Positions 1,845 to 34,420 of a stretch of DNA of 64,000 bases are shown here, one piece after another. Within the stretch, counting starts at the first letter, position 1. Each line of letters begins with the position of its first letter. The DNA lies in contig NZ_CP133470.1 in assembly GCF_031191205.1 (NCBI RefSeq), positions 1,495,501 to 1,559,500 on the forward strand. Reading direction: 5' to 3'. The notes beneath the pieces are model-generated. The model was not told the origin of the DNA, ran no database searches, and was given only the letters and a program-made list of their open reading frames with translations. Origin of the DNA: Haemophilus parainfluenzae ATCC 33392. Its GTDB lineage: Bacteria > Pseudomonadota > Gammaproteobacteria > Enterobacterales > Pasteurellaceae. A program made the translations under genes and the position numbers.

Positions 1845-2033
1845 AGATAATATTTAAAATTTTTTCTTCCTTTTAAAGTGCGGTCATTTCCGTTCTTGTT
1901 TTACAAAATAAGTCCGCAGGAATAAAGTTCAAGGGGAAAAATAAAATATTTTTGAAAAAATAAGAAAAAAATTTCATTTTATGATAAATTGCTGACAATT
2001 TTAGTCATCTATTAATTTAATAAAGGAATCAAA

Positions 2034-3533
2034 ATGAAAAAATCAGTCGTAGCATTAGGCGTAATTGTGGCACTTGGTGTGGTAGGTGTCGGTGGAGCTT
2101 GGTTTACTGGGGAAAAAGCACAAACTGAATATTTACGCCAAATTGAATTAGCAAACAAACAAGCTCAGGCTTTAGGCTTATCTGATTCATTTAAGGTTGT
2201 TTATCAAAATAAACAGTTTGAGCGCGGTTTCTTTACTTCTCAAGTGGAAGATGAAGTGGTCATATCTTTACCCAAAGAGGGGAAGGTATTTACTATTCCA
2301 TTTTCAACTAAGCTTTATCATGGTCCATTCCCACTCGATCAATTAACCAAATTTAATTTCATGCCAGCAATGTTTTCAGCACAAGGTGTGATTGGTAAAA
2401 ATGAAACCACCCAACCTTTATTTGATTTGCTTAAATCGGATAAACCTGTTCAATATCAAGCAACTACTGGCTATAACTTATCGACAAAAGGTAAAGTTGA
2501 ATTAGCGGGTGGAGAGCTAACTGATCCAGAGTCACCAGGAACGAAAGTCACTTGGTCAAATATCAATATGGGCTTTGATATCAATAAAGATCTCGCTGGC
2601 AAATATGATATGACCTTAAATGAAGTGAGTGCTACTGTCTTGCCAGAAGTGATGGAGGAGCAAGATGGCGAAGATATGCCTAAATCAATCACAATGAAAA
2701 TGAAAGGCATGAAAGTCGAAGGTTCATATAATCCAACTAAATGGGCTTACATTTATACGGGAAACAGCACTTCTTTAATTGACAGTTTTGAAATGGCTAC
2801 GCTCGATTATGCGGGAAAAGAGAGCACTGTAGTCCAAAAGGGTTTTAAAGCAAAATCTGATATTTCACTCGATGGTGATTTCGTGAGTGCCAAAAGTGAA
2901 AATACGGTAGACTCGATAGCTATTGATGGGAAAGATTTTGGTAAATTAACTTACAACGTTGAGTTAAACCATATTGAAGCAAATGCGATTAATGCATTGA
3001 TTGAAGCACTTTTTACTGTCTTCGAATCAATAAGTGATGAGGAAAATTCTTCTAATGAGGAAATGGTATCCGAAATTTTAAGCTCATGGGCTGAAAATCA
3101 TGGTATGGCTATTTTTAATAATCAACCTCAAATTAAACTAAACCCAATGTCAATTTCAAATAGCCAGGGTAAAGTCTCATTAGATTTAAATGTGGCGTTA
3201 GCGAAAGATCCGAAATTTGATTTAATGGCGGGGAGTTTATATAAACAATTTACGGATTTTGCGTTAAATATTCACGTAGATAAAGAAATGGTTGAAAAAA
3301 ATCTTGCACAATTTGTACCAGAAGAAGAGAGAGCTTTGATTAAAGCACAAATTGAAGAGCAAGCTAAACAAGCGGCAGCACAAAATATTGTGGTGAATAA
3401 TGATAAAAATGTGACGCTTAACTTAGTGCTTGAAAAGGGCGAACTCAAACTTAATGGTCAAGTGATTCCTGAAGAGCAAGTTCAAGGCGTGTTGTTTATG
3501 CTAATGATGGGAATGGCGGCACAGGGCCAGTAA
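2034..3533 (+). CDS. YdgA-like DUF945 family protein
   Basis: This 499-residue protein resembles E. coli YdgA (502 residues). Both begin with a short N-terminal hydrophobic segment (here residues 5-24) followed by a GGAWxTG sequence, then YQN and a HGPFPLxQL stretch near residues 95-105. The family is annotated DUF945. It is thought to be anchored in the inner membrane with a periplasmic body, and its biochemical role is not established. It is a single gene divergent from dnaK and ends at a hairpin terminator. The start ATG follows an AAAGGAA ribosome site. Confidence 0.85.
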   Translation: MKKSVVALGVIVALGVVGVGGAWFTGEKAQTEYLRQIELANKQAQALGLSDSFKVVYQNKQFERGFFTSQVEDEVVISLPKEGKVFTIPFSTKLYHGPFPLDQLTKFNFMPAMFSAQGVIGKNETTQPLFDLLKSDKPVQYQATTGYNLSTKGKVELAGGELTDPESPGTKVTWSNINMGFDINKDLAGKYDMTLNEVSATVLPEVMEEQDGEDMPKSITMKMKGMKVEGSYNPTKWAYIYTGNSTSLIDSFEMATLDYAGKESTVVQKGFKAKSDISLDGDFVSAKSENTVDSIAIDGKDFGKLTYNVELNHIEANAINALIEALFTVFESISDEENSSNEEMVSEILSSWAENHGMAIFNNQPQIKLNPMSISNSQGKVSLDLNVALAKDPKFDLMAGSLYKQFTDFALNIHVDKEMVEKNLAQFVPEEERALIKAQIEEQAKQAAAQNIVVNNDKNVTLNLVLEKGELKLNGQVIPEEQVQGVLFMLMMGMAAQGQ

Positions 3534-3556
3534 TTAACAACGAAATAATTAGAAAG

Positions 3557-3583
3557 GAGATAAAGTCATTTATCTCTTTTTTT
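3557..3583 (+). terminator. Rho-independent terminator after the ydgA-like gene
   Basis: GAGATAAA (3557-3564) pairs with TTTATCTC (3569-3576) around a 4-base loop, followed by a run of seven T. It lies between the convergent ydgA-like and mgsA genes. Confidence 0.75.
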
Positions 3584-3606
3584 ATTAGGTTGAGATTATT
3601 TGAGTT

Positions 3607-4065
3607 TTAATCTAAACGTGCCTTTAAATATCCGTCATAATCAGGGATATCAATATCAATTTCTTGATCGAACAAACTTGATGTTAAAAGGAAATCGGCC
3701 GTGCTTTGATTAATCGCTACCGGAATATTCCAAACGGTTGCAATACGCATTAAGGCTTTTACATCGGGATCATGGGGTGCTGCGTTCATCGGATCCCAAA
3801 AGAAAATCATCATATCAATTTTTTTCTCGGCAATCAGTCCGCCAAGTTGTTGATCGCCTCCCATCGGGCCACTTAATAGCGAGGCTATTTCAAGTCCCGT
3901 TTCTCTAGACAATAGATGGCCAGTTGTACCTGTTGCATAAAGTTGATGGGGAGCGAGAGCTTCTTTATGTTTCTTTACCCAATTGAGCAGATTTTGTTTG
4001 CAGCTATCATGTGCAACGAGCGCTATTCGTTTATGAGAAAAGATTGGGCGAGTTGTCGTGTTCAT
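3607..4065 (-). CDS. mgsA: Methylglyoxal synthase
   Basis: Converts dihydroxyacetone phosphate to methylglyoxal and phosphate, a bypass of lower glycolysis when phosphate is short. The 152-residue length matches the family. Recognisable parts are the N-terminal [10 protein letters not shown] segment, the phosphate-binding YATGTTG turn, [11 protein letters not shown] and the FFWDPM region. An AGAGGA ribosome site precedes the ATG at 4065. It is convergent with the ydgA-like gene and divergent from aceE. GloB, which clears the product of methylglyoxal detoxification, is encoded at 23356. Confidence 0.97.
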
Positions 4066-4372
4066 ATTTTGTCCTCTAAAAAGCTTAAAAGCATGCGAAC
4101 ACTTTAGATCAAAGCGGGTAAGGAATGCAATATATAAAGTATAGTTTAATTTAAGCTCAAAAATCCTTTAAAAATGACCGCACTTTTAGTGAAGAGTATT
4201 GCAATAACACGAAGAAATGCGTGAGAACAGTGAAAATCTACTATCTTTCTTGCAAAAAATCTTCTAAAATTTACAAGATTTGTTAAATGTTTGTAACATA
4301 GATTAACAAGCTTGATTTTCGTGTTTGGTCATAACCAAACTTCATTTTCACTCAGTAAAATAAGGAAAGACT
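4066..4372. other. Intergenic region between mgsA and aceE
   Basis: This 307-base AT-rich gap holds the divergent promoters of mgsA and the pyruvate dehydrogenase operon. It contains one uptake signal (4177-4185), a TTGTTAA/TTAACAA dyad (4280-4286 and 4303-4309) and the GTTTGGT dyad listed separately. I see no small gene in it. The TGTTAA-rich stretch resembles an ArcA-type site, but only loosely. Confidence 0.6.
4323..4340. promoter_or_regulatory. PdhR-like dyad upstream of aceE
   Basis: GTTTGGT (4323-4329) and ACCAAAC (4334-4340) form a perfect inverted repeat, 32 bases before the aceE start. The E. coli PdhR operator is TTGGT-N3-ACCAA. Here the spacer is four bases, so assignment to PdhR is tentative. 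Pyruvate-responsive control is the natural expectation for this operon. Confidence 0.45.
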
Positions 4373-26892: not shown

Positions 26893-28476
26893 TTAATGTT
26901 CCCTTGTTTTAAAGAAGGTCACATCAGGATAACGTTCTTGTGCAAGATTTAGGTTTACCATGGTCGGTGCGATATAAGTGAGATTATCACCGCCATCTAA
27001 TGCCAGGTTTTGCTCATTCTTACGTTTGAACTCTTCAAATTTTTTGTTATCCGCACATTCCACCCAACGAGCTGTTGCGACGTTGACAGTTTCGTAAATG
27101 GCTTCAACGTTATATTCTGATTTCAAACGAGAAACGACCACATCAAACTGTAACACACCGACTGCGCCAACAATTAAATCATTATTACTTAATGGGCGGA
27201 ATACTTGCACAGCTCCTTCTTCAGAAAGTTGTACTAAGCCTTTCAACAATTGTTTTTGTTTAAGAGGATCTTTCAAACGAATGCGACGGAATAATTCAGG
27301 CGCAAAGTTTGGAATACCGGTAAATTTCAGATCTTCACCTTGTGTGAAGGTATCACCAATCTGAATTGTACCGTGATTGTGCAAGCCGATAATATCGCCA
27401 GCATAGGCTTCATCGGCATGGGTACGGTCCCCCGCCATAAAGGTGAGAGCGTCAGAAATGACTACATCTTTACCAATACGTACGTGTTTAAGTTTCATCC
27501 CTTTTTCGTATTTACCAGAAACTACGCGTAGGAAAGCCACACGGTCGCGGTGTTTTGGATCCATATTGGCTTGGATTTTAAACACGAAACCAGAGAATTT
27601 TTCTTCTTCAGCTGAGACTTTACGCGTGTCAGCTTGACGAGCTTGTGGTGCAGGTGCCCATTCGGTTAAACCATCTAAGAAATGATCGACACCGAAGTTA
27701 CCTAATGCCGTACCGAAAAAGACAGGTGTTAATTCACCACTTAGGAATAAATCCAAATCAAATTCATTACTTGCACCTTTTACAAGCTCTAATTCATCAC
27801 GCAATTGTTGGGCTAAGTCATCGCCTACGGCAGCATCTAATTCTGGGCTATTTAGACCTTTCACAATGCGTACTTCTTGGATTGTAGAGCCTTGCCCACT
27901 TTGGTAAAGATAGGTTTCATCTTTATATAAATGATAAACCCCTTTAAACAATTTACCGCAACCAATCGGCCAAGTAATTGGCGCACAATGGATTTTTAAT
28001 ACGCTTTCCACTTCATCTAATAATTCCATTGGATCACGAATATCACGGTCAAGTTTATTCATGAAAGTGATAATTGGCGTATCGCGCAAACGGGTGACTT
28101 CCATTAATTTAATGGTACGTTCCTCAACTCCTTTTGCCGAGTCGATAACCATTAAGCAGCTATCCACAGCCGTCAAAGTGCGGTAGGTATCTTCCGAGAA
28201 ATCCTCATGCCCCGGTGTATCCAATAAATTCACTAAGCACTCATTGTAAGGGAATTGCATGACGGAAGTCGTAATGGAAATACCACGTTGTTTTTCCATT
28301 TCCATCCAGTCAGATTTTGCATGCTGTGCAGAGCCTTTACCTTTTACTGAGCCTGCTTTTTGAATGGCATTGCCGTATAACAATACTTTTTCGGTGATGG
28401 TGGTTTTACCAGCGTCAGGGTGGGAAATAATCGCAAATGTGCGACGTTTATTCACTTCTTCTAATGGATAACTCAT
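26893..28476 (-). CDS. prfC: Peptide chain release factor 3
   Basis: Translational GTPase that recycles RF1 and RF2 from the ribosome. The G1 motif [10 protein letters not shown]3 [14 protein letters not shown] and G4 NKLD are all present, and the 527 residues match E. coli RF3 (529). It is followed on the minus strand by an inverted uptake-signal hairpin and lies next to the tRNA operon, which is on the opposite strand. One uptake signal lies in the coding region at 28174. After that none appears until 33504. Confidence 0.98.
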
Positions 28477-28613
28477 TGTCTTGTTTCTTCTGTTTTAAAT
28501 AATGCTGTATTGTCGCTGATTTTCAGATTGAGCTCAAATTAAATTGGGAAAATATTGATTTTATGCTCAATTAGCTTAACAAAGAATATTGATGGTTGTT
28601 TATTTTTTAACCT

Positions 28614-28629
28614 TTGCAAGCGTTTGCGT
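28614..28629. promoter_or_regulatory. PurR-like (LacI-family) operator
   Basis: TTGCAAGCGTTTGCGT fits the PurR consensus ANGCAANCGNTTNCNT except at the first position. It lies 138 bases before prfC and 334 bases before the first cluster gene. Other LacI-family regulators use similar half-sites, so the regulator is uncertain. Confidence 0.5.
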
Positions 28630-28889
28630 TGGTTATGTTATAAACATTATTGTTTTTTAATTCTATCGTTTTTCTTTTATTGATTGGTTAAGTCTTTTAA
28701 TTTTTATGTAAAATTATCAGATAGTAGGGATGGTTATTTGTAATTTTTTTTACTTAACTAAATGTTTTATTTGTATTAAAAATGCATTGTTTACTTTTAG
28801 TAAAAAGTAGTCGACATATGTTGCTTATTATAGTTCAAAAATAATTGGTCTAATGACTGGGTTTATTTTGCCGTGATAGATTACCCCTG

Positions 28890-28929
28890 ACTGAAATATA
28901 CCGATTTCAGTTTTCAATCCTTGATTGAA
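28890..28929 (+). promoter_or_regulatory. Two tandem inverted repeats before the secretion cluster
   Basis: ACTGAAAT/ATTTCAGT (28890-28897 and 28904-28911) and TTCAATC/GATTGAA (28913-28919 and 28923-28929) follow each other directly, ending 33 bases before the first start codon. They could be operators or hairpins in the mRNA leader. Confidence 0.5.
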
Positions 28930-28962
28930 TAATATTTTCTCATGAGGAATCTTGAGGTAAAA

Positions 28963-29343
28963 ATGAAAAAACAAACTTTTTGTTTTAAACAATTATTGCT
29001 TATTGCATTTGGAGTTTGCTCTGTATCAACGTTTGTTTATGGGAGCACTCAAAATGTAACTGTTAGTGGAGCTGTAAATAACTCTTCTTCTGGCAGCGGT
29101 AAAGCAATGATTAATGTTGGTTCTACCGTAGGTAAGAGTGTTGGCAATAATACCCAAAATGTTGTTGTGAATGGCTCCTTAGTAAATAGAGCATCTGGTA
29201 GCGGTAAAGCCAGCATTAATATTGGATCATCAGTAAATGATGGTGGAAGCCATAATCAGTCAGTTAGTGTTGGTTCAATTGTCAATTCTTCTTCAGGTGG
29301 TAAATCTGAAGTGAATATCGGTTCTGTTGTTAAAGATTATTAA
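28963..29343 (+). CDS. Small secreted repeat protein A, candidate substrate of the CsgG-like exporter
   Basis: I do not recognise a named family. The 126-residue protein has a signal peptide (cleavage likely after FVYG, residue 27). The mature part is three imperfect repeats of about 33 residues (28-60, 62-95, 97-122) rich in Asn, Ser, Gly and Val. Two repeats contain Q-x-V-x-V-x-G-x-[VL]-x-N (30-40 and 65-75), and the third is one residue shorter. Short Gly/Asn/Gln-rich repeats are typical of curlin-like amyloids or beta-solenoids. A strong GAGGT site supports the ATG at 28963 over the one at 28942. It is the first of six genes. Confidence 0.75.
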   Translation: MKKQTFCFKQLLLIAFGVCSVSTFVYGSTQNVTVSGAVNNSSSGSGKAMINVGSTVGKSVGNNTQNVVVNGSLVNRASGSGKASINIGSSVNDGGSHNQSVSVGSIVNSSSGGKSEVNIGSVVKDY

Positions 29344-29356
29344 TCTTTAGCTCAGA

Positions 29357-29385
29357 ATTAATGATTGTATTAAATAATCATTAAT
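29357..29385 (+). other. AU-rich hairpin between small repeat proteins A and B
   Basis: ATTAATGATT (29357-29366) pairs perfectly with AATCATTAAT (29376-29385). No T run follows, so a role in mRNA stability is more likely than termination. Confidence 0.45.
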
Positions 29386-29434
29386 TTCAATAAGCATAGT
29401 AATGCTCAATTTCTTTTAAAAAAGAGGAAAAACA

Positions 29435-29731
29435 ATGAAAAATCTAGTTAAGATTAGTGCAGCAGCAATCTTTGCAGCAAGTTTAGCTTTATCTACTAAT
29501 GCTGCAATTAAAATTGGTGGTAACAACACTCAAACTACCAATATTCAAGGTGCAGTAGCTAATACAGCCGTGGGCGGTAGTAAAGCGATTCAAAATATTT
29601 CATCTAACCATGGTAAAGTAACTATCGGTGGTAATAACACTCAAACCACTAATATTCAAGGTGCGGTAGCTAATACTGCAGTTGGTGGAAGTAAGGCTAT
29701 ACAAAACTTAAGTTCTAATAGCAGCGAATAG
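29435..29731 (+). CDS. Small secreted repeat protein B, candidate substrate of the CsgG-like exporter
   Basis: A 98-residue protein with a clear signal peptide (cleavage likely after STNA, residue 23). The mature part is almost only two copies of a 37-residue unit (27-63 and 64-98) starting IGGNNTQTTNIQGAVAN. Each unit carries the cluster motif Q-x-T-x-I-x-G-x-V-x-N (33-43 and 70-80). The first 28 residues of both units are identical, yet their codons differ at 14 positions. No named family is recognised. It resembles protein A and was probably derived from a common unit. A strong hairpin terminator follows. Confidence 0.78.
   Translation: MKNLVKISAAAIFAASLALSTNAAIKIGGNNTQTTNIQGAVANTAVGGSKAIQNISSNHGKVTIGGNNTQTTNIQGAVANTAVGGSKAIQNLSSNSSE
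29513..29728 (+). repeat. Two 111-base coding repeats within small repeat protein B
   Basis: Units 29513-29623 and 29624-29728 encode the two 37-residue repeats. They differ mainly at third codon positions, so this is an old duplication and not a recent copy. Confidence 0.85.
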
Positions 29732-29745
29732 TCATAAATAAAATT

Positions 29746-29779
29746 AATTGGTTATTGGTTATCCAATAACCAATTTTTT
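29746..29779 (+). terminator. Strong terminator or attenuator inside the secretion cluster
   Basis: ATTGGTTATTGG (29747-29758) pairs perfectly with CCAATAACCAAT (29763-29774) around a TTAT loop, followed by a T run. It separates the two small repeat proteins from the exporter genes and probably makes the former more abundant. Confidence 0.8.
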
Positions 29780-29811
29780 ATGTGTTTTAAGATTCTGTTG
29801 GAGACGAAGTC

Positions 29812-30186
29812 ATGAAAGTTTTTTACATGTTGATACTATTTGGGGCTTCATGTTTTTTATCTCTAAATACTTTTGCGGGAAATGGTGAACTTGTACCAAG
29901 AAAAGGTTTAGGGCCTTTGGATAAAGCAAAAGTTCATGAAGTTCAGGCTCAAAAGTGGTCAAGAATTGGAATGGGAATAGAGATGGAAGATGAGGCTGAG
30001 AATAGTGTATCTCAGTATAACAACACTTCTAGTGGCAGTTCATTTGGAGGACGTTCTAAAAATTGTTCTACAAATGTTGGAAATGTTACCGCTCAAAAAG
30101 GTGCTAGTTCTGGTCGATATGGTCCTAAAAATAAAAATAATAATGTTGTCGTTGTTAAAGGCGATGTAATTAATGTCTGTAAATAA
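29812..30186 (+). CDS. Small secreted two-cysteine protein C of the secretion cluster
   Basis: Not a recognised family. The 124-residue protein has a signal peptide (cleavage likely after TFAG or TFA, near residue 22), a charged middle and a Ser/Gly/Asn-rich C-terminal third. Two cysteines remain after cleavage, Cys85 and Cys123, and may form a disulfide. Residues 111-121 (NVVVVKGDVIN) fit the cluster motif with Asn in place of the leading Gln. It starts 80 bases after protein B, past the hairpin, and ends 23 bases before the CsgG-like gene. It could be an adaptor or a minor subunit. Confidence 0.65.
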   Translation: MKVFYMLILFGASCFLSLNTFAGNGELVPRKGLGPLDKAKVHEVQAQKWSRIGMGIEMEDEAENSVSQYNNTSSGSSFGGRSKNCSTNVGNVTAQKGASSGRYGPKNKNNNVVVVKGDVINVCK

Positions 30187-30209
30187 TTAATAATAACTTA
30201 AGGTATCTT

Positions 30210-31787
30210 ATGAAATTTTCTCGAACTATTATTTCTTATGTTTTGATTTCTAATCTAGTTGGGTGTTCTTTATCTGCTACAAATCTAAAAGAAGATAGAC
30301 CATATATTGGCTCAACAACGACTCATAACCTCCCTGCAGTAGAACCAGTTAGATCGATATCAAGTTTCAGTGATAGTTTAAATTGTATGGATGATTTGCT
30401 ACGTCAAAGTAATATTGGTGAAACAGTTATTGCAGTAAAAACTATTAAAGATCCATCAACTAAAGCTGGTGTAGCTGCAAGCGAAATGATTATGACTGCG
30501 TTGTCACAAATGTCGAAAATTAGTGGTGCTTTTAAGGTCGCTGATTTTGAAATCGATCCTTTAAAACAAGATACCGTTCAGACATTAACAAATCTTTTAT
30601 TACCAACGGGAAGTATGCAAATTCCGGCGCCTCAACTTTATATTTCAGGGGCAGTATCTTATGTGGATCAGAATGTATTACGTAAGTCCAATAGCTTAGG
30701 ACTGTCTTATGCAGAAGATGGTGAGCTTGGTATTTCAGGTGATTTGATGACAACCGCATTGGGGTTGGAGTTGCATATGGGGGATTTTTTAACCCGTACG
30801 CTTTATCCGGGTATTGATTCATCTAATGAAATTGTTGCTGCTGGTAAGGGTTTTGGACTCGATGCTGGTGCAAAAATTAAGAAAACAGGTGTTCAGTTTT
30901 CTTTAGAACGAGCGCTTTCTCAAGGGCTGGGAGGTTCAATGCGAACCTTAGTTGATTTAGGTACGATAGAGTTAGTGGGTAAATTAACTAAAGTGCCTTA
31001 TTGGCAATGTTTATCGCTTGACCAAGCTCATCCTGAATTCCAACGTGAATTGTTAGATTGGTACGGTGGAATGGGAGATAGTAGCAAAGTTAAATTCTTC
31101 CAAACTGGCTTGAAAAACTTAGGTTATTACAGCGGTAAAGTAGATGGCAAGAGTTCAAAAGAATTCCGTGATGCATTATCGGCATTCCAAAAAGATAATA
31201 AAGCGACACCTTCTGGTTTTATTAATTTCGAAAGCTATGAACGCTTAATGAAAAATTATGTAAAAACAGATGCAAATGGTAACTTTAAGAAAGTAGGAGT
31301 AGAAGCATCAGATGATAAAGAAGATCAACCTCGAGGAGGGTATCCAGTACTAAATTCTGATAAAGATGCACCAATTAATGTAGGCATTAACTTAAATAAG
31401 TCATCTTATCGTCGAGGTGATGCATTAGAGTTAGATGTTAATGTGGATAGAGATTCAACTTATTTAGCGTGTTTCTACCAAGACGCATCGAAAAGCATTA
31501 CTCAGGTTTATCCAAATCCTATCCAAGGAGAGGGTATAACCTCTAAAAATAATCCACTGAAAATTCCAGGCTCTGATGCATTTACTTTAAGTTTAAATGA
31601 AAAAGGTAAAGAAAGTGTGATGTGTATGGCTTCATATTATAGTGTATCTGATAAGCTTCAGAGCAACTTTGGGGATGCCTTGAATCCGCTTAAAGTGAAG
31701 GATATGAATGAGTTATCTGAGCAATTAAAAACAATCTTTGGTGATGATTTAAAAGGTATCCAAACAGTGAGTTATCAAGTGAAGTAA
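30210..31787 (+). CDS. CsgG-like lipoprotein fused to peptidoglycan-binding and DUF4384-like domains
   Basis: A 525-residue predicted lipoprotein (lipobox LVGC, Cys19). Residues 45-270 resemble the CsgG/HfaB family, which form outer-membrane export channels for curli or holdfast proteins. Matching points to CsgG are QLYISGAVSYVDQNV, LGLELHMGDFLTRTLYP and a helical LERALSQGLGGSMRTLVDLG stretch. Residues 290-345 look like a PG_binding_1 domain (FFQTGLKNLGYYSGKVDG). Residues 385-475 look like DUF4384 (LNKSSYRRGDALELDV, then YLACFYQD). I infer a channel anchored to the cell wall. The CsgG match is distant and needs a profile search. Confidence 0.72.
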   Translation: MKFSRTIISYVLISNLVGCSLSATNLKEDRPYIGSTTTHNLPAVEPVRSISSFSDSLNCMDDLLRQSNIGETVIAVKTIKDPSTKAGVAASEMIMTALSQMSKISGAFKVADFEIDPLKQDTVQTLTNLLLPTGSMQIPAPQLYISGAVSYVDQNVLRKSNSLGLSYAEDGELGISGDLMTTALGLELHMGDFLTRTLYPGIDSSNEIVAAGKGFGLDAGAKIKKTGVQFSLERALSQGLGGSMRTLVDLGTIELVGKLTKVPYWQCLSLDQAHPEFQRELLDWYGGMGDSSKVKFFQTGLKNLGYYSGKVDGKSSKEFRDALSAFQKDNKATPSGFINFESYERLMKNYVKTDANGNFKKVGVEASDDKEDQPRGGYPVLNSDKDAPINVGINLNKSSYRRGDALELDVNVDRDSTYLACFYQDASKSITQVYPNPIQGEGITSKNNPLKIPGSDAFTLSLNEKGKESVMCMASYYSVSDKLQSNFGDALNPLKVKDMNELSEQLKTIFGDDLKGIQTVSYQVK

Positions 31788-31809
31788 ACAAATAATCATT
31801 GGGGACGAT

Positions 31810-32850
31810 ATGTCAAAAAAATATTCAGCATCTAAATTATTTGTTTATGCCTTGCTAGCGGGGATTCCGGTTTCTTATGCACAAATCGTGATTAATAAGC
31901 CGATTGAGCCTAGGAATTCAACCGTTCAGCAAGAGCAAAATACGGGGTTTTCTATGGAATTTGCTTATGAAAGCTACCGTAATAAGGATTATCAAAATGC
32001 TTATGATGAATTTGATCATTTTGTTTTACAGAATAATCCAAAAGCGTTAATGGCGAATGCCTATTTGTTGTTTAGTGGAAATTTACCAAGAGATTTTGCT
32101 AGAGCTAATAAATATTTAGCGCAAGTATCTTCCCTAAAATATGCTCGAGCAATATATTTGCAAGGGCTATTGGAAAAATACCAAAAAGGCTTAAGTCAAT
32201 TTAATGCAAAGTCTGAAAGATTGGTTAATGATGCTGCAGTTATGGGTGATTATGTCGCTGCGAATGCTTTAGCTAACTACCATTTCCAAAAAGGGAATTA
32301 TGCATTAGCCCAACGTTGGAATGAAAAAGCGATTAGCTTAGGAAGCCCTGCTGCAAGACTAAATCAACGCATTATATTAAATCGCCAAAATGAGCAAGCA
32401 GTTCAAATGGTGCCTAAAACTGTTTCTTCACCACCAAATGTAGGTGTGATCGGTGAACTAAGAGAGCGTTCTCAAGCGGGTGACTCAAGTGCAAGCTACG
32501 ATTTAGCGGTTCGTTTCCATAAAGGTGTTGGTGTTGCAGTAAATTTTGGTGAAGCAATTCGTCTATATCAATTAGCTGCAGAACAAGGTAGCGCTGAAGC
32601 TCAAAAAGTGTTGCCGATTTTGTTATCAAGAAGAACAACGGGTGGCAATATTAATAGTATGTGGATGCAACGAATGTCAAATATGTTACCAAGTCCAGTT
32701 GTAGTACAACAGGATACTAATCGTATGCATACAGGCAAAACTGAAAAAAATATTGCGGGGTTTGATACAGAAAAAGCCACGAAAGCTATAACAACATTAC
32801 AGGAAGATGATCCATTAGACGGATTATTAACTTTGGAACCAAGTCGTTAA
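31810..32850 (+). CDS. Exported Sel1/TPR-like repeat protein of the secretion cluster
   Basis: A 346-residue protein with a signal peptide (cleavage likely after SYA, residue 24). Helical repeats run from about 48 to 200, and a clear Sel1-like repeat lies at about 222-265 (GDSSASYDLAVRFHKGVGV, then AIRLYQLAAEQGSAEAQ). The C-terminal 80 residues look disordered. Sel1 proteins act as scaffolds for protein complexes. With a CsgG-like gene 22 bases upstream it may be a periplasmic chaperone or accessory factor. That is inference from position; no direct homologue is recognised. Confidence 0.7.
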   Translation: MSKKYSASKLFVYALLAGIPVSYAQIVINKPIEPRNSTVQQEQNTGFSMEFAYESYRNKDYQNAYDEFDHFVLQNNPKALMANAYLLFSGNLPRDFARANKYLAQVSSLKYARAIYLQGLLEKYQKGLSQFNAKSERLVNDAAVMGDYVAANALANYHFQKGNYALAQRWNEKAISLGSPAARLNQRIILNRQNEQAVQMVPKTVSSPPNVGVIGELRERSQAGDSSASYDLAVRFHKGVGVAVNFGEAIRLYQLAAEQGSAEAQKVLPILLSRRTTGGNINSMWMQRMSNMLPSPVVVQQDTNRMHTGKTEKNIAGFDTEKATKAITTLQEDDPLDGLLTLEPSR

Positions 32851-32882
32851 TTTATTTAAAGTAAACATGAAGGAAGGTAAAC

Positions 32883-33416
32883 ATGAAGCACGTTTATTCA
32901 AAATTAGCTATTACATTATTTAGTTTTGTAGCATTATCGAGCTATGCTCAAGCTGATAATCATCAATCAGTTACAGTAAAGGGTAAAATTATTAATAGCG
33001 CAACGGATGGCGGAGAATCAGTACAAACTATCTCAGGCAAAAAAAGTACTGTTGTCAATGGCACAGTTATTACTCACAACGGCGAAACGACATATATCCC
33101 TAGTGGTGATTCATCTTCAGATAAAGTTAATGCTGCTTTAGGTGGACAAGATTTCTCTGGTCAAGATTTGGCAGGACAGTCATTTACCAATTCAGATCTT
33201 GCCAATGCAAACTTTAGCAATGCGAATTTGCAAGGCGCTGATTTCACAAATACAAATTTAAGTGGGGCTAACTTTCATAAAGCTAACTTAAAAGGCGCTA
33301 ATTTAACCAATTCTAACTTAGCAGGTGCAGATCTTACTGGCGCCAATTTAAAAGGTGCAATCAAAACGAATATCAATACCCGTGGAGCAAAAACCAAAGG
33401 GGCAATTTGGCGATAA
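32883..33416 (+). CDS. Secreted pentapeptide-repeat protein carrying the cluster motif
   Basis: A 177-residue protein with a signal peptide (cleavage likely after AQA, residue 24). Just after cleavage comes QSVTVKGKIIN (28-38), the same motif as in proteins A and B, and a weaker second copy (about 53-65). Residues 90-159 are 14 consecutive pentapeptides of the A(D/N)LXX type, which fold as a right-handed quadrilateral beta-helix. The joining of the motif to a solenoid suggests the motif is a targeting or assembly segment. It is the last gene of the cluster, followed by a terminator. Confidence 0.75.
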   Translation: MKHVYSKLAITLFSFVALSSYAQADNHQSVTVKGKIINSATDGGESVQTISGKKSTVVNGTVITHNGETTYIPSGDSSSDKVNAALGGQDFSGQDLAGQSFTNSDLANANFSNANLQGADFTNTNLSGANFHKANLKGANLTNSNLAGADLTGANLKGAIKTNINTRGAKTKGAIWR

Positions 33417-33435
33417 GGCGACAAGTGATATACAA

Positions 33436-33463
33436 AAAACAGGCTTTATAGCCTGTTTTTTTA
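33436..33463 (+). terminator. Terminator at the end of the secretion cluster
   Basis: AACAGGCT (33438-33445) pairs with AGCCTGTT (33450-33457) around TTAT, followed by a T run. It separates the cluster from purC. Confidence 0.85.
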
Positions 33464-33486
33464 TTTGCTTTTATTTTTATAAAAAA

Positions 33487-33502
33487 AAGCAAACGTTTGC
33501 GC
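33487..33502. promoter_or_regulatory. PurR operator upstream of purC
   Basis: AAGCAAACGTTTGCGC has the full palindromic PurR core GCAAACGTTTGC, 57 bases before the purC start. Repression by PurR with a purine co-repressor is expected. Confidence 0.85.
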
Positions 33503-33559
33503 TAAAAGTGCGGTACAATATCCACCGATTTTTTATTCTTATAATTAAAGGTGCAAGCA

Positions 33560-34420
33560 ATGACACAACTTAGTCTAAAAAAAATCTATTCGGGAAAAGT
33601 GCGTGATCTTTATGAGATCGATGATAAACGAATGTTAATGGTCGCCAGTGACCGTTTGTCTGCATTTGATGTGATTTTAGATGATCCTATCCCACGTAAA
33701 GGTGAAATCCTGACTCAAATTTCCAATTTCTGGTTCAATAAGTTAGCCCATATTATGCCGAATCATTTTACGGGCGATTCAGTTTATGATGTGTTGCCAA
33801 AAGAAGAGGCTGATTTAGTAAAAGATCGCGCAGTGGTTTGCAAACGTTTGAATCCAATTAAAATTGAGTCTATCGTACGTGGTTATTTAACGGGTAGTGG
33901 ACTAAAAGATTATAAGCAAACAGGGGCCATCTGTGGGTTGAAATTACCGGAAGGATTAGTTGAAGCAAGTAAATTACCAGAACCAATTTTTACGCCATCA
34001 AGTAAAGAAGAAGTGGGTAATCACGATATCAATATCAGCTATGAACAATGTGAAAAAGCAATTGGTGCAGAGTTAGCGGCACAAGTGAGAGAAAAAGCAA
34101 TTGCGCTTTATACTGAGGCAGCAAAATATGCGCTGACTAAAGGTATTATTATTTGTGATACTAAATTTGAATTTGGTTTAGATGAAAATGGTACGCTCAC
34201 TTTAATGGATGAGGTATTAACACCGGATTCTAGCCGTTTTTGGTCAGTTGATACTTATAAAGAAGGCACAAATCCTCCATCATTTGATAAGCAGTTTGTA
34301 CGAGATTGGTTAGAGCAAAGTGGTTGGAATAAACAACCGCCAGCACCGAAAGTACCAAAAGAAGTGATTGATAAAACGGTGGCTAAATATCAAGAGGCCT
34401 TGGATTTATTAACAAAATAA
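33560..34420 (+). CDS. purC: Phosphoribosylaminoimidazole-succinocarboxamide synthase
   Basis: SAICAR synthase, joining CAIR and aspartate with ATP in purine synthesis. Typical stretches are [18 protein letters not shown] opening (here [14 protein letters not shown]), [24 protein letters not shown] and [14 protein letters not shown]. The ATG at 33560 after AAAGGTG gives 286 residues; a GTG at 33551 is less likely. A PurR box precedes it and a hairpin terminator follows. Confidence 0.97.

Follow-up and report, generated by a model that had tools for sequence, protein, structure and literature searches.

A set of six same-strand genes at positions 28963-33416 of a 64,000-nucleotide stretch (the window) of the Haemophilus parainfluenzae ATCC 33392 chromosome, which is complete at 2.14 Mb, appears to encode a third, so far unnamed branch among the CsgG-type (type VIII-like) secretion systems, one that exports proteins with repeats of 35-37 residues as cell-wall-tied surface fibres. 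Judged from sequence, we put the probability of this reading at roughly two in three. If it is correct, CsgG-type secretion gains a third branch, functional fibres gain a new candidate family, and the system is present in host-associated Pasteurellaceae (Haemophilus parainfluenzae, Aggregatibacter and Rodentibacter) as well as in many other proteobacteria.

All six genes lie on the plus strand. The first, p1 (28963-29343), encodes an exported Ser/Val/Gly/Asn-rich protein of 126 aa with about three repeats of about 35 residues, and the second, p2 (29435-29731), an exported Asn/Gly/Ala/Thr-rich protein of 98 aa with two 37-residue repeats. They are followed by a small exported two-cysteine protein, p3 (29812-30186), a CsgG/HfaB-type outer-membrane lipoprotein of 525 aa (30210-31787; the channel below), an exported Sel1/TPR-type protein of 346 aa, p5 (31810-32850), and an exported pentapeptide-repeat beta-helix protein of 177 aa, p6 (32883-33416). 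A first-pass annotation had described six same-strand genes for exported proteins or lipoproteins with gaps of 22-91 bases; the six ORFs bear this out, with a signal peptide in five products and a lipobox in the 30210 product (recognised by eye, no predictor being used) and measured gaps of 91, 80, 23, 22 and 32 bases. The set is flanked by a divergent gene at 26893-28476 on one side and a gene at 33551-34420 on the other, which look prfC-like and purC-like, respectively. Compared with three related loci (L002, L008 and L003), all six genes are under purifying selection at dN/dS 0.05-0.42 (the channel at 0.05-0.08, the other five at 0.07-0.42), figures that are rough because some dS values exceed 1. 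The channel is 96% identical to that of L002, and p3 evolves fastest of the set (against L008, dN/dS 0.42 with 60% identity). At 0.36, the G+C content of the cluster is lower than that of the window (0.40), which proves nothing alone, and an Rfam search of 28400-33600 returned no match.

The channel carries the lipobox LVGC, whose Cys19 varies hardly at all among 49 aligned relatives, a CsgG-like region at residues ~20-286, a PG_binding_1 domain at 292-341 and a DUF4384 domain at 399-475. The latter two were found by Pfam in 49/49 relatives and are the only Pfam domains that score credibly on the channel itself. The first-pass annotation had also claimed a CsgG/HfaB-like region here. Pfam is blind to it: PF03783 (CsgG) matched none of the 49 family members at E <= 1 and nothing in the organism's own genome at E <= 0.001, the controls, including E. 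coli, being detected. The NCBIfam HfaB model does see it, weakly, matching 28 of the 49 relatives at E <= 0.1 (best 1e-5) and giving the window's channel 12.8 bits, below the equivalog cut-off of 300 bits.

The region emerges more clearly in profile-profile comparison, which was performed with hhalign against one template at a time, so that its E-values are those for a database of one. A channel family of 65 rows (the 49 closer relatives plus 16 more distant ones, 12 of these from other classes of the phylum, three of 19 candidates having been dropped) scored 97.2% over 234 columns against four HfaB sequences and 94.3% over 212 columns against 30 CsgG-type sequences. The 49 closer relatives alone matched the latter weakly, at 17.9%, and E. 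coli CsgG as the template gave 72%. Scores were 92.9% against the curli-type CsgG subset, 54.9% against a second CsgG group and, as a control, 0.1% for the C-terminal half of the channel family. The remote homology to HfaB and CsgG runs nearly end to end over the N-terminal ~265 residues of the channel. Cys59, invariant in the 49 rows, falls opposite a cysteine that all four HfaB sequences possess in both hhalign and MAFFT, and the invariant Cys267 aligns with a second HfaB cysteine in hhalign, but not in the MAFFT alignment. Membership of the channel in the CsgG/HfaB superfamily is supported by these alignments.

In a tree of 51 rows the channel family forms a clade of its own (100/100), apart from curli CsgG and HfaB and on their side of a 96/89 split, its exact place being unsure because of a long stem (2.1 changes per column) with a long-branch warning. 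On the opposite side lies the second group of CsgG-fold lipoproteins (L089-L102 except L098), which has the CsgG-type domain and lipobox in common with the channel but gives the weaker profile match. Such a group, set apart from curli CsgG within the superfamily, raises the question of a complex that does not secrete at all. Other CsgG-fold lipoproteins serve as periplasmic outer-membrane lipoprotein scaffolds in cell-wall work, and the CsgG-like domain might do the same here while the small proteins stay periplasmic; the PG_binding domain fused to it and the presence of a Sel1 partner likewise point to the cell wall. We consider this quite improbable, in view of the place of the channel family on the curli CsgG/HfaB side (subject to the long-branch warning), of the segments matching CsgG's two membrane hairpins, which are kept in the channel alignment, and of a steady pairing with repetitive exported proteins that would be expected of a channel and its substrates.

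A segment of 12-13 CsgG residues that includes mature Tyr51, Asn55 and Phe56 (numbering verified against CsgG of K-12), which we take to be the constriction, has no counterpart in the channel family in either the hhalign or the joint MAFFT alignment, and HfaB retains a shorter version of it. This suggests a channel without the CsgG constriction loop. The loop is thought to gate unfolded curlin, so gating would have to differ in a channel that lacks it, and its apparent loss opens the question of how such channels are gated to experiment. As CsgG is used as a nanopore, a natural pore without the loop would also be of practical interest.

The candidate substrates are the repeat proteins. Self-identity at the repeat offset is 32% in p1 (period 35 residues) and 79% in p2 (period 37 residues), and p3 lacks a strong period, its best offset giving 16%, in agreement with the earlier remark that two of the three small proteins are repeated. 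Iterated HMM searches starting from either p1 or p2 unite the two in one repeat family, and over the whole genome at E <= 1 the repeat profile matches only these two proteins. The window's p2 stands at the low end with two repeat copies, and proteins of Variovorax and Ramlibacter (L012, L043) have, by eye, many. By their sequences, p1 is a candidate fibre subunit and p2 the candidate main subunit. Their comparison to curlins in the first-pass annotation stands for the Asn/Gly/Ser-rich repeat style and finds no support as to descent: the repeat profile scored 0.9% against CsgA/B, homology being undetectable, and among the ORFs at four HfaB loci none was matched by the p1, p2 and p3 profiles (lowest E 1.4), a test that is weaker at one of the four because of masked bases there and beyond whose reach such repetitive proteins may diverge. 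The curlin likeness is thus one of style only. Weak Pfam matches to MSL1_dimer, Ntox6 and DUF6835, scattered over p1, p2 and their relatives, and likewise scattered matches of a few relatives to TrmB (3e-6) and DUF3918 (1e-6), were set aside as due to chance or composition.

By profile score HfaB is the closest characterised relative of the channel, and Caulobacter HfaABD is accordingly the nearest known system. The two resemble each other in the homologous channel region, the cysteine common to two alignments and the second found in one, the lipobox and the presence of exported neighbours with repetitive sequence. According to PMC6707917, HfaA and HfaD require HfaB to reach the Caulobacter surface, and the three anchor the holdfast. 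By analogy, the channel could bring p1, p2 and p6 to the surface so that they attach an exopolysaccharide to the outer membrane, with no fibre of their own being built, and the peptidoglycan-binding and Sel1 partners would fit such an anchor. It is an unlikely reading, however, given that the genes beside HfaB are unmatched by the p1, p2 and p3 profiles (at one locus partly masked) and that the genes flanking the present set look like prfC and purC. The present channel further differs in its added PG_binding_1 and DUF4384 domains and in its Sel1 and pentapeptide partners. A true holdfast anchor was rejected: the channel is close, but the HfaB cut-off and partner tests fail.

True curli were ruled out by the Pfam tests for CsgG, curlin, CsgE and CsgF. 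In the organism's own genome the curlin repeat (PF07012) gave no match at E <= 1, the E. coli control being detected, the CsgF model gave none at E <= 1, and the CsgE model gave one chance match (E 0.445, 11.7 of 25 bits, stops inside); the initial failure to recognise csgA, csgB, csgE or csgF is upheld. Curli (CsgABCDEFG) and the present system have in common the CsgG homology and adjoining small Asn/Gly/Ser-rich repeat proteins. They are unlike in these unmatched models, in the repeat length of 35-37 residues found here, in the missing counterpart of the constriction loop and in the separate clade of the channel. CsgC and CsgD are missing from many curli systems, according to a survey (PMC3521004).

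No credible family for p3 was found in Pfam or NCBIfam. A profile search recovered 372 relatives among 8000 candidates scored; among the 120 matches listed, most are nameless, and every named one is a 'hypothetical protein' except for a single 'PASTA domain-containing protein'. Its two cysteines, C85 and C123, are invariant in 24/24 aligned members, and its C-terminus reads VVVVKGDVINVCK. On this basis p3 is a candidate coupling factor, cap or minor subunit.

The Sel1 protein and the beta-solenoid named in the first-pass annotation were both recovered, p5 by its Sel1 repeat (3e-9) and p6 by its pentapeptide repeats (8e-24). The former, present at 47/47 loci, is likely, from its sequence, a periplasmic scaffold or chaperone. 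The latter is present at 12/47 loci (eight Pasteurellaceae, three Lysobacter and one Dokdonella) and appears to carry one substrate-type repeat N-terminal to the pentapeptide part, visible by eye in the window's copy. In eight of the 12 loci p6 is matched by the p1/p2 profiles (L003, L004, L005, L007, L009, L010, L011 and L045; for example 2e-8 in L003 and 7e-12 in L010); they do not match it in L002, L006, L008 or L015, nor does the repeat profile match the window's own p6 at E <= 1. We regard p6 as a candidate cap, tip or surface adhesin.

The gene set recurs widely. One scan with two short peptide patterns yielded 48 loci in named genomes, some of them near copies: eight from Pasteurellaceae, three from Lysobacter, one from Dokdonella, two from Buttiauxella, one labelled Cellvibrio and 33 labelled betaproteobacterial. 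The channel frame was found in 47 of them, L044 being cut within the channel. In 46/47 loci a repeat protein, p3 and p5 are encoded on the same strand as the channel and at set distances from it, the exception being L045, whose contig starts inside the channel; chance neighbours were ruled out on this count. The strict order repeat-p3-channel-p5, by midpoints of matched domains, holds in 45/47 (the place of p5 is not resolved in L009), and at least two repeat genes occur in 13/47. The full six-gene form, p6 included, thus also exists in Lysobacter (L010) and Dokdonella (L015). Within the Pasteurellaceae, the channel and p3 were found in the same 12/140 genomes, the present one included, so the system is patchy but travels as a unit. 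To call it a Pasteurellaceae pathway, as had been proposed, is too narrow in view of its relatives in Lysobacter, Dokdonella, Buttiauxella and many betaproteobacteria.

Eighteen further regions contain a channel relative, and five of them have the strict order. L133-L136 have repeat, p3 and p5 profiles nearby (L135 is apparently the same record as L027); L137, L139-L141 and L143 have repeat and p3 profiles, with p5 also in L139 and L140; L138 has p3, and repeat proteins by eye; and L142 has p3 on the opposite strand. In the remaining seven (L144-L150), p1, p2 and p3 were not recognised, a point against the reading proposed here, L144 and L148 being cut by contig ends. Downstream of the channel in the more distant genomes of L137-L139 come, by eye, a protein whose C-terminus is OmpA-like and a small one bearing a CWQ.G motif, which perhaps replace the Sel1 partner. 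In L148 a 786-residue repeat-rich protein (1984-4344), whose repeats resemble the substrates by eye, adjoins the truncated channel relative. Two Azospirillum plasmid records carry a channel relative; in one of them, L165 from Azospirillum ramasamyi, it is preceded by genes for a sigma factor and a zf-HC2 protein and followed by an OmpA family gene and another DUF4384 gene.

Among the matches listed, gene names are only 'hypothetical' or 'DUF4384 domain-containing'. The first-pass annotation had supposed the system to be undescribed, and the open-licence literature in PubMed Central agrees, no description being found among the matches listed; one may exist elsewhere. Open-licence papers on DUF4384 include none on this system by title and abstract start, and the main text of the 2012 curli survey (PMC3521004) contains no Haemophilus, Pasteurell-, Polaromonas or Lysobacter. 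In PMC3328466 and PMC4446954, APL_0220 of Actinobacillus pleuropneumoniae is called 'csgG', a naming given no weight here; in PMC3729834, csgG is mentioned only in the reference list.

In the secretion system that we propose, all six proteins would cross the inner membrane by Sec, as their signal peptides indicate. The lipoprotein, with its CsgG/HfaB fold, would form an oligomeric outer-membrane channel, which its own peptidoglycan-binding domain would tie to the wall. Through it would pass p1, p2 and probably p6, which may fold outside as stacked two-strand repeats into a short surface fibre or coat. Encoded beside the channel, p3 would most likely act as a specificity or coupling factor in the role of CsgE/CsgF, its two invariant cysteines probably forming a disulphide, and p5 would be the periplasmic Sel1 scaffold. 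We lean narrowly towards a broader formulation, drawn from the same comparisons, in which a third separate CsgG-type lineage exists in gamma- and betaproteobacteria and also, where its partners diverge further, in other classes of the phylum; it would build a wall-tethered fibre from a new family of 35-37-residue repeats through a constriction-less channel and derive its specificity from p3, which has no detectable relation to CsgE/CsgF.

The set had been said to end at one terminator. A terminator-like hairpin does lie at its 3' end (33434-33461, plus strand), but a second one lies inside it, between p2 and p3: a 13-bp terminator-like hairpin with a T tail at 29746-29775 (plus strand), which splits the set into the subunit genes p1 and p2 and the rest. 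It is kept in L002, L003 and L008, where in L008 the tip differs yet still pairs. In the four other Pasteurellaceae loci examined, the same scan found an unrelated hairpin in L006 and none in L005, L007 or L011, and the count of terminator-like sites in the region shows no enrichment (4 found against 2.8 expected). The internal hairpin is a candidate attenuator separating subunits from machinery, and might let the subunits be made in excess over the machinery.

In the upstream intergenic region (28477-28962, 486 bases), no match to the sigma-70 consensus was found on the plus strand. In the alignment with L002, L008 and L003, a stretch at ~28826-28856 is kept between Haemophilus and Rodentibacter amid otherwise diverged DNA and is possibly a promoter or regulator site. 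Two GCAARCGTTTGC sites, which are PurR-like palindromes, were also noted, one upstream of the set (28616-28627), kept in L002 and L008 and not in Rodentibacter L003, and one before the purC-like gene (33489-33500). Counting both strands, there are 3 matches to GCAARCGTTTGC against 0.05 expected.
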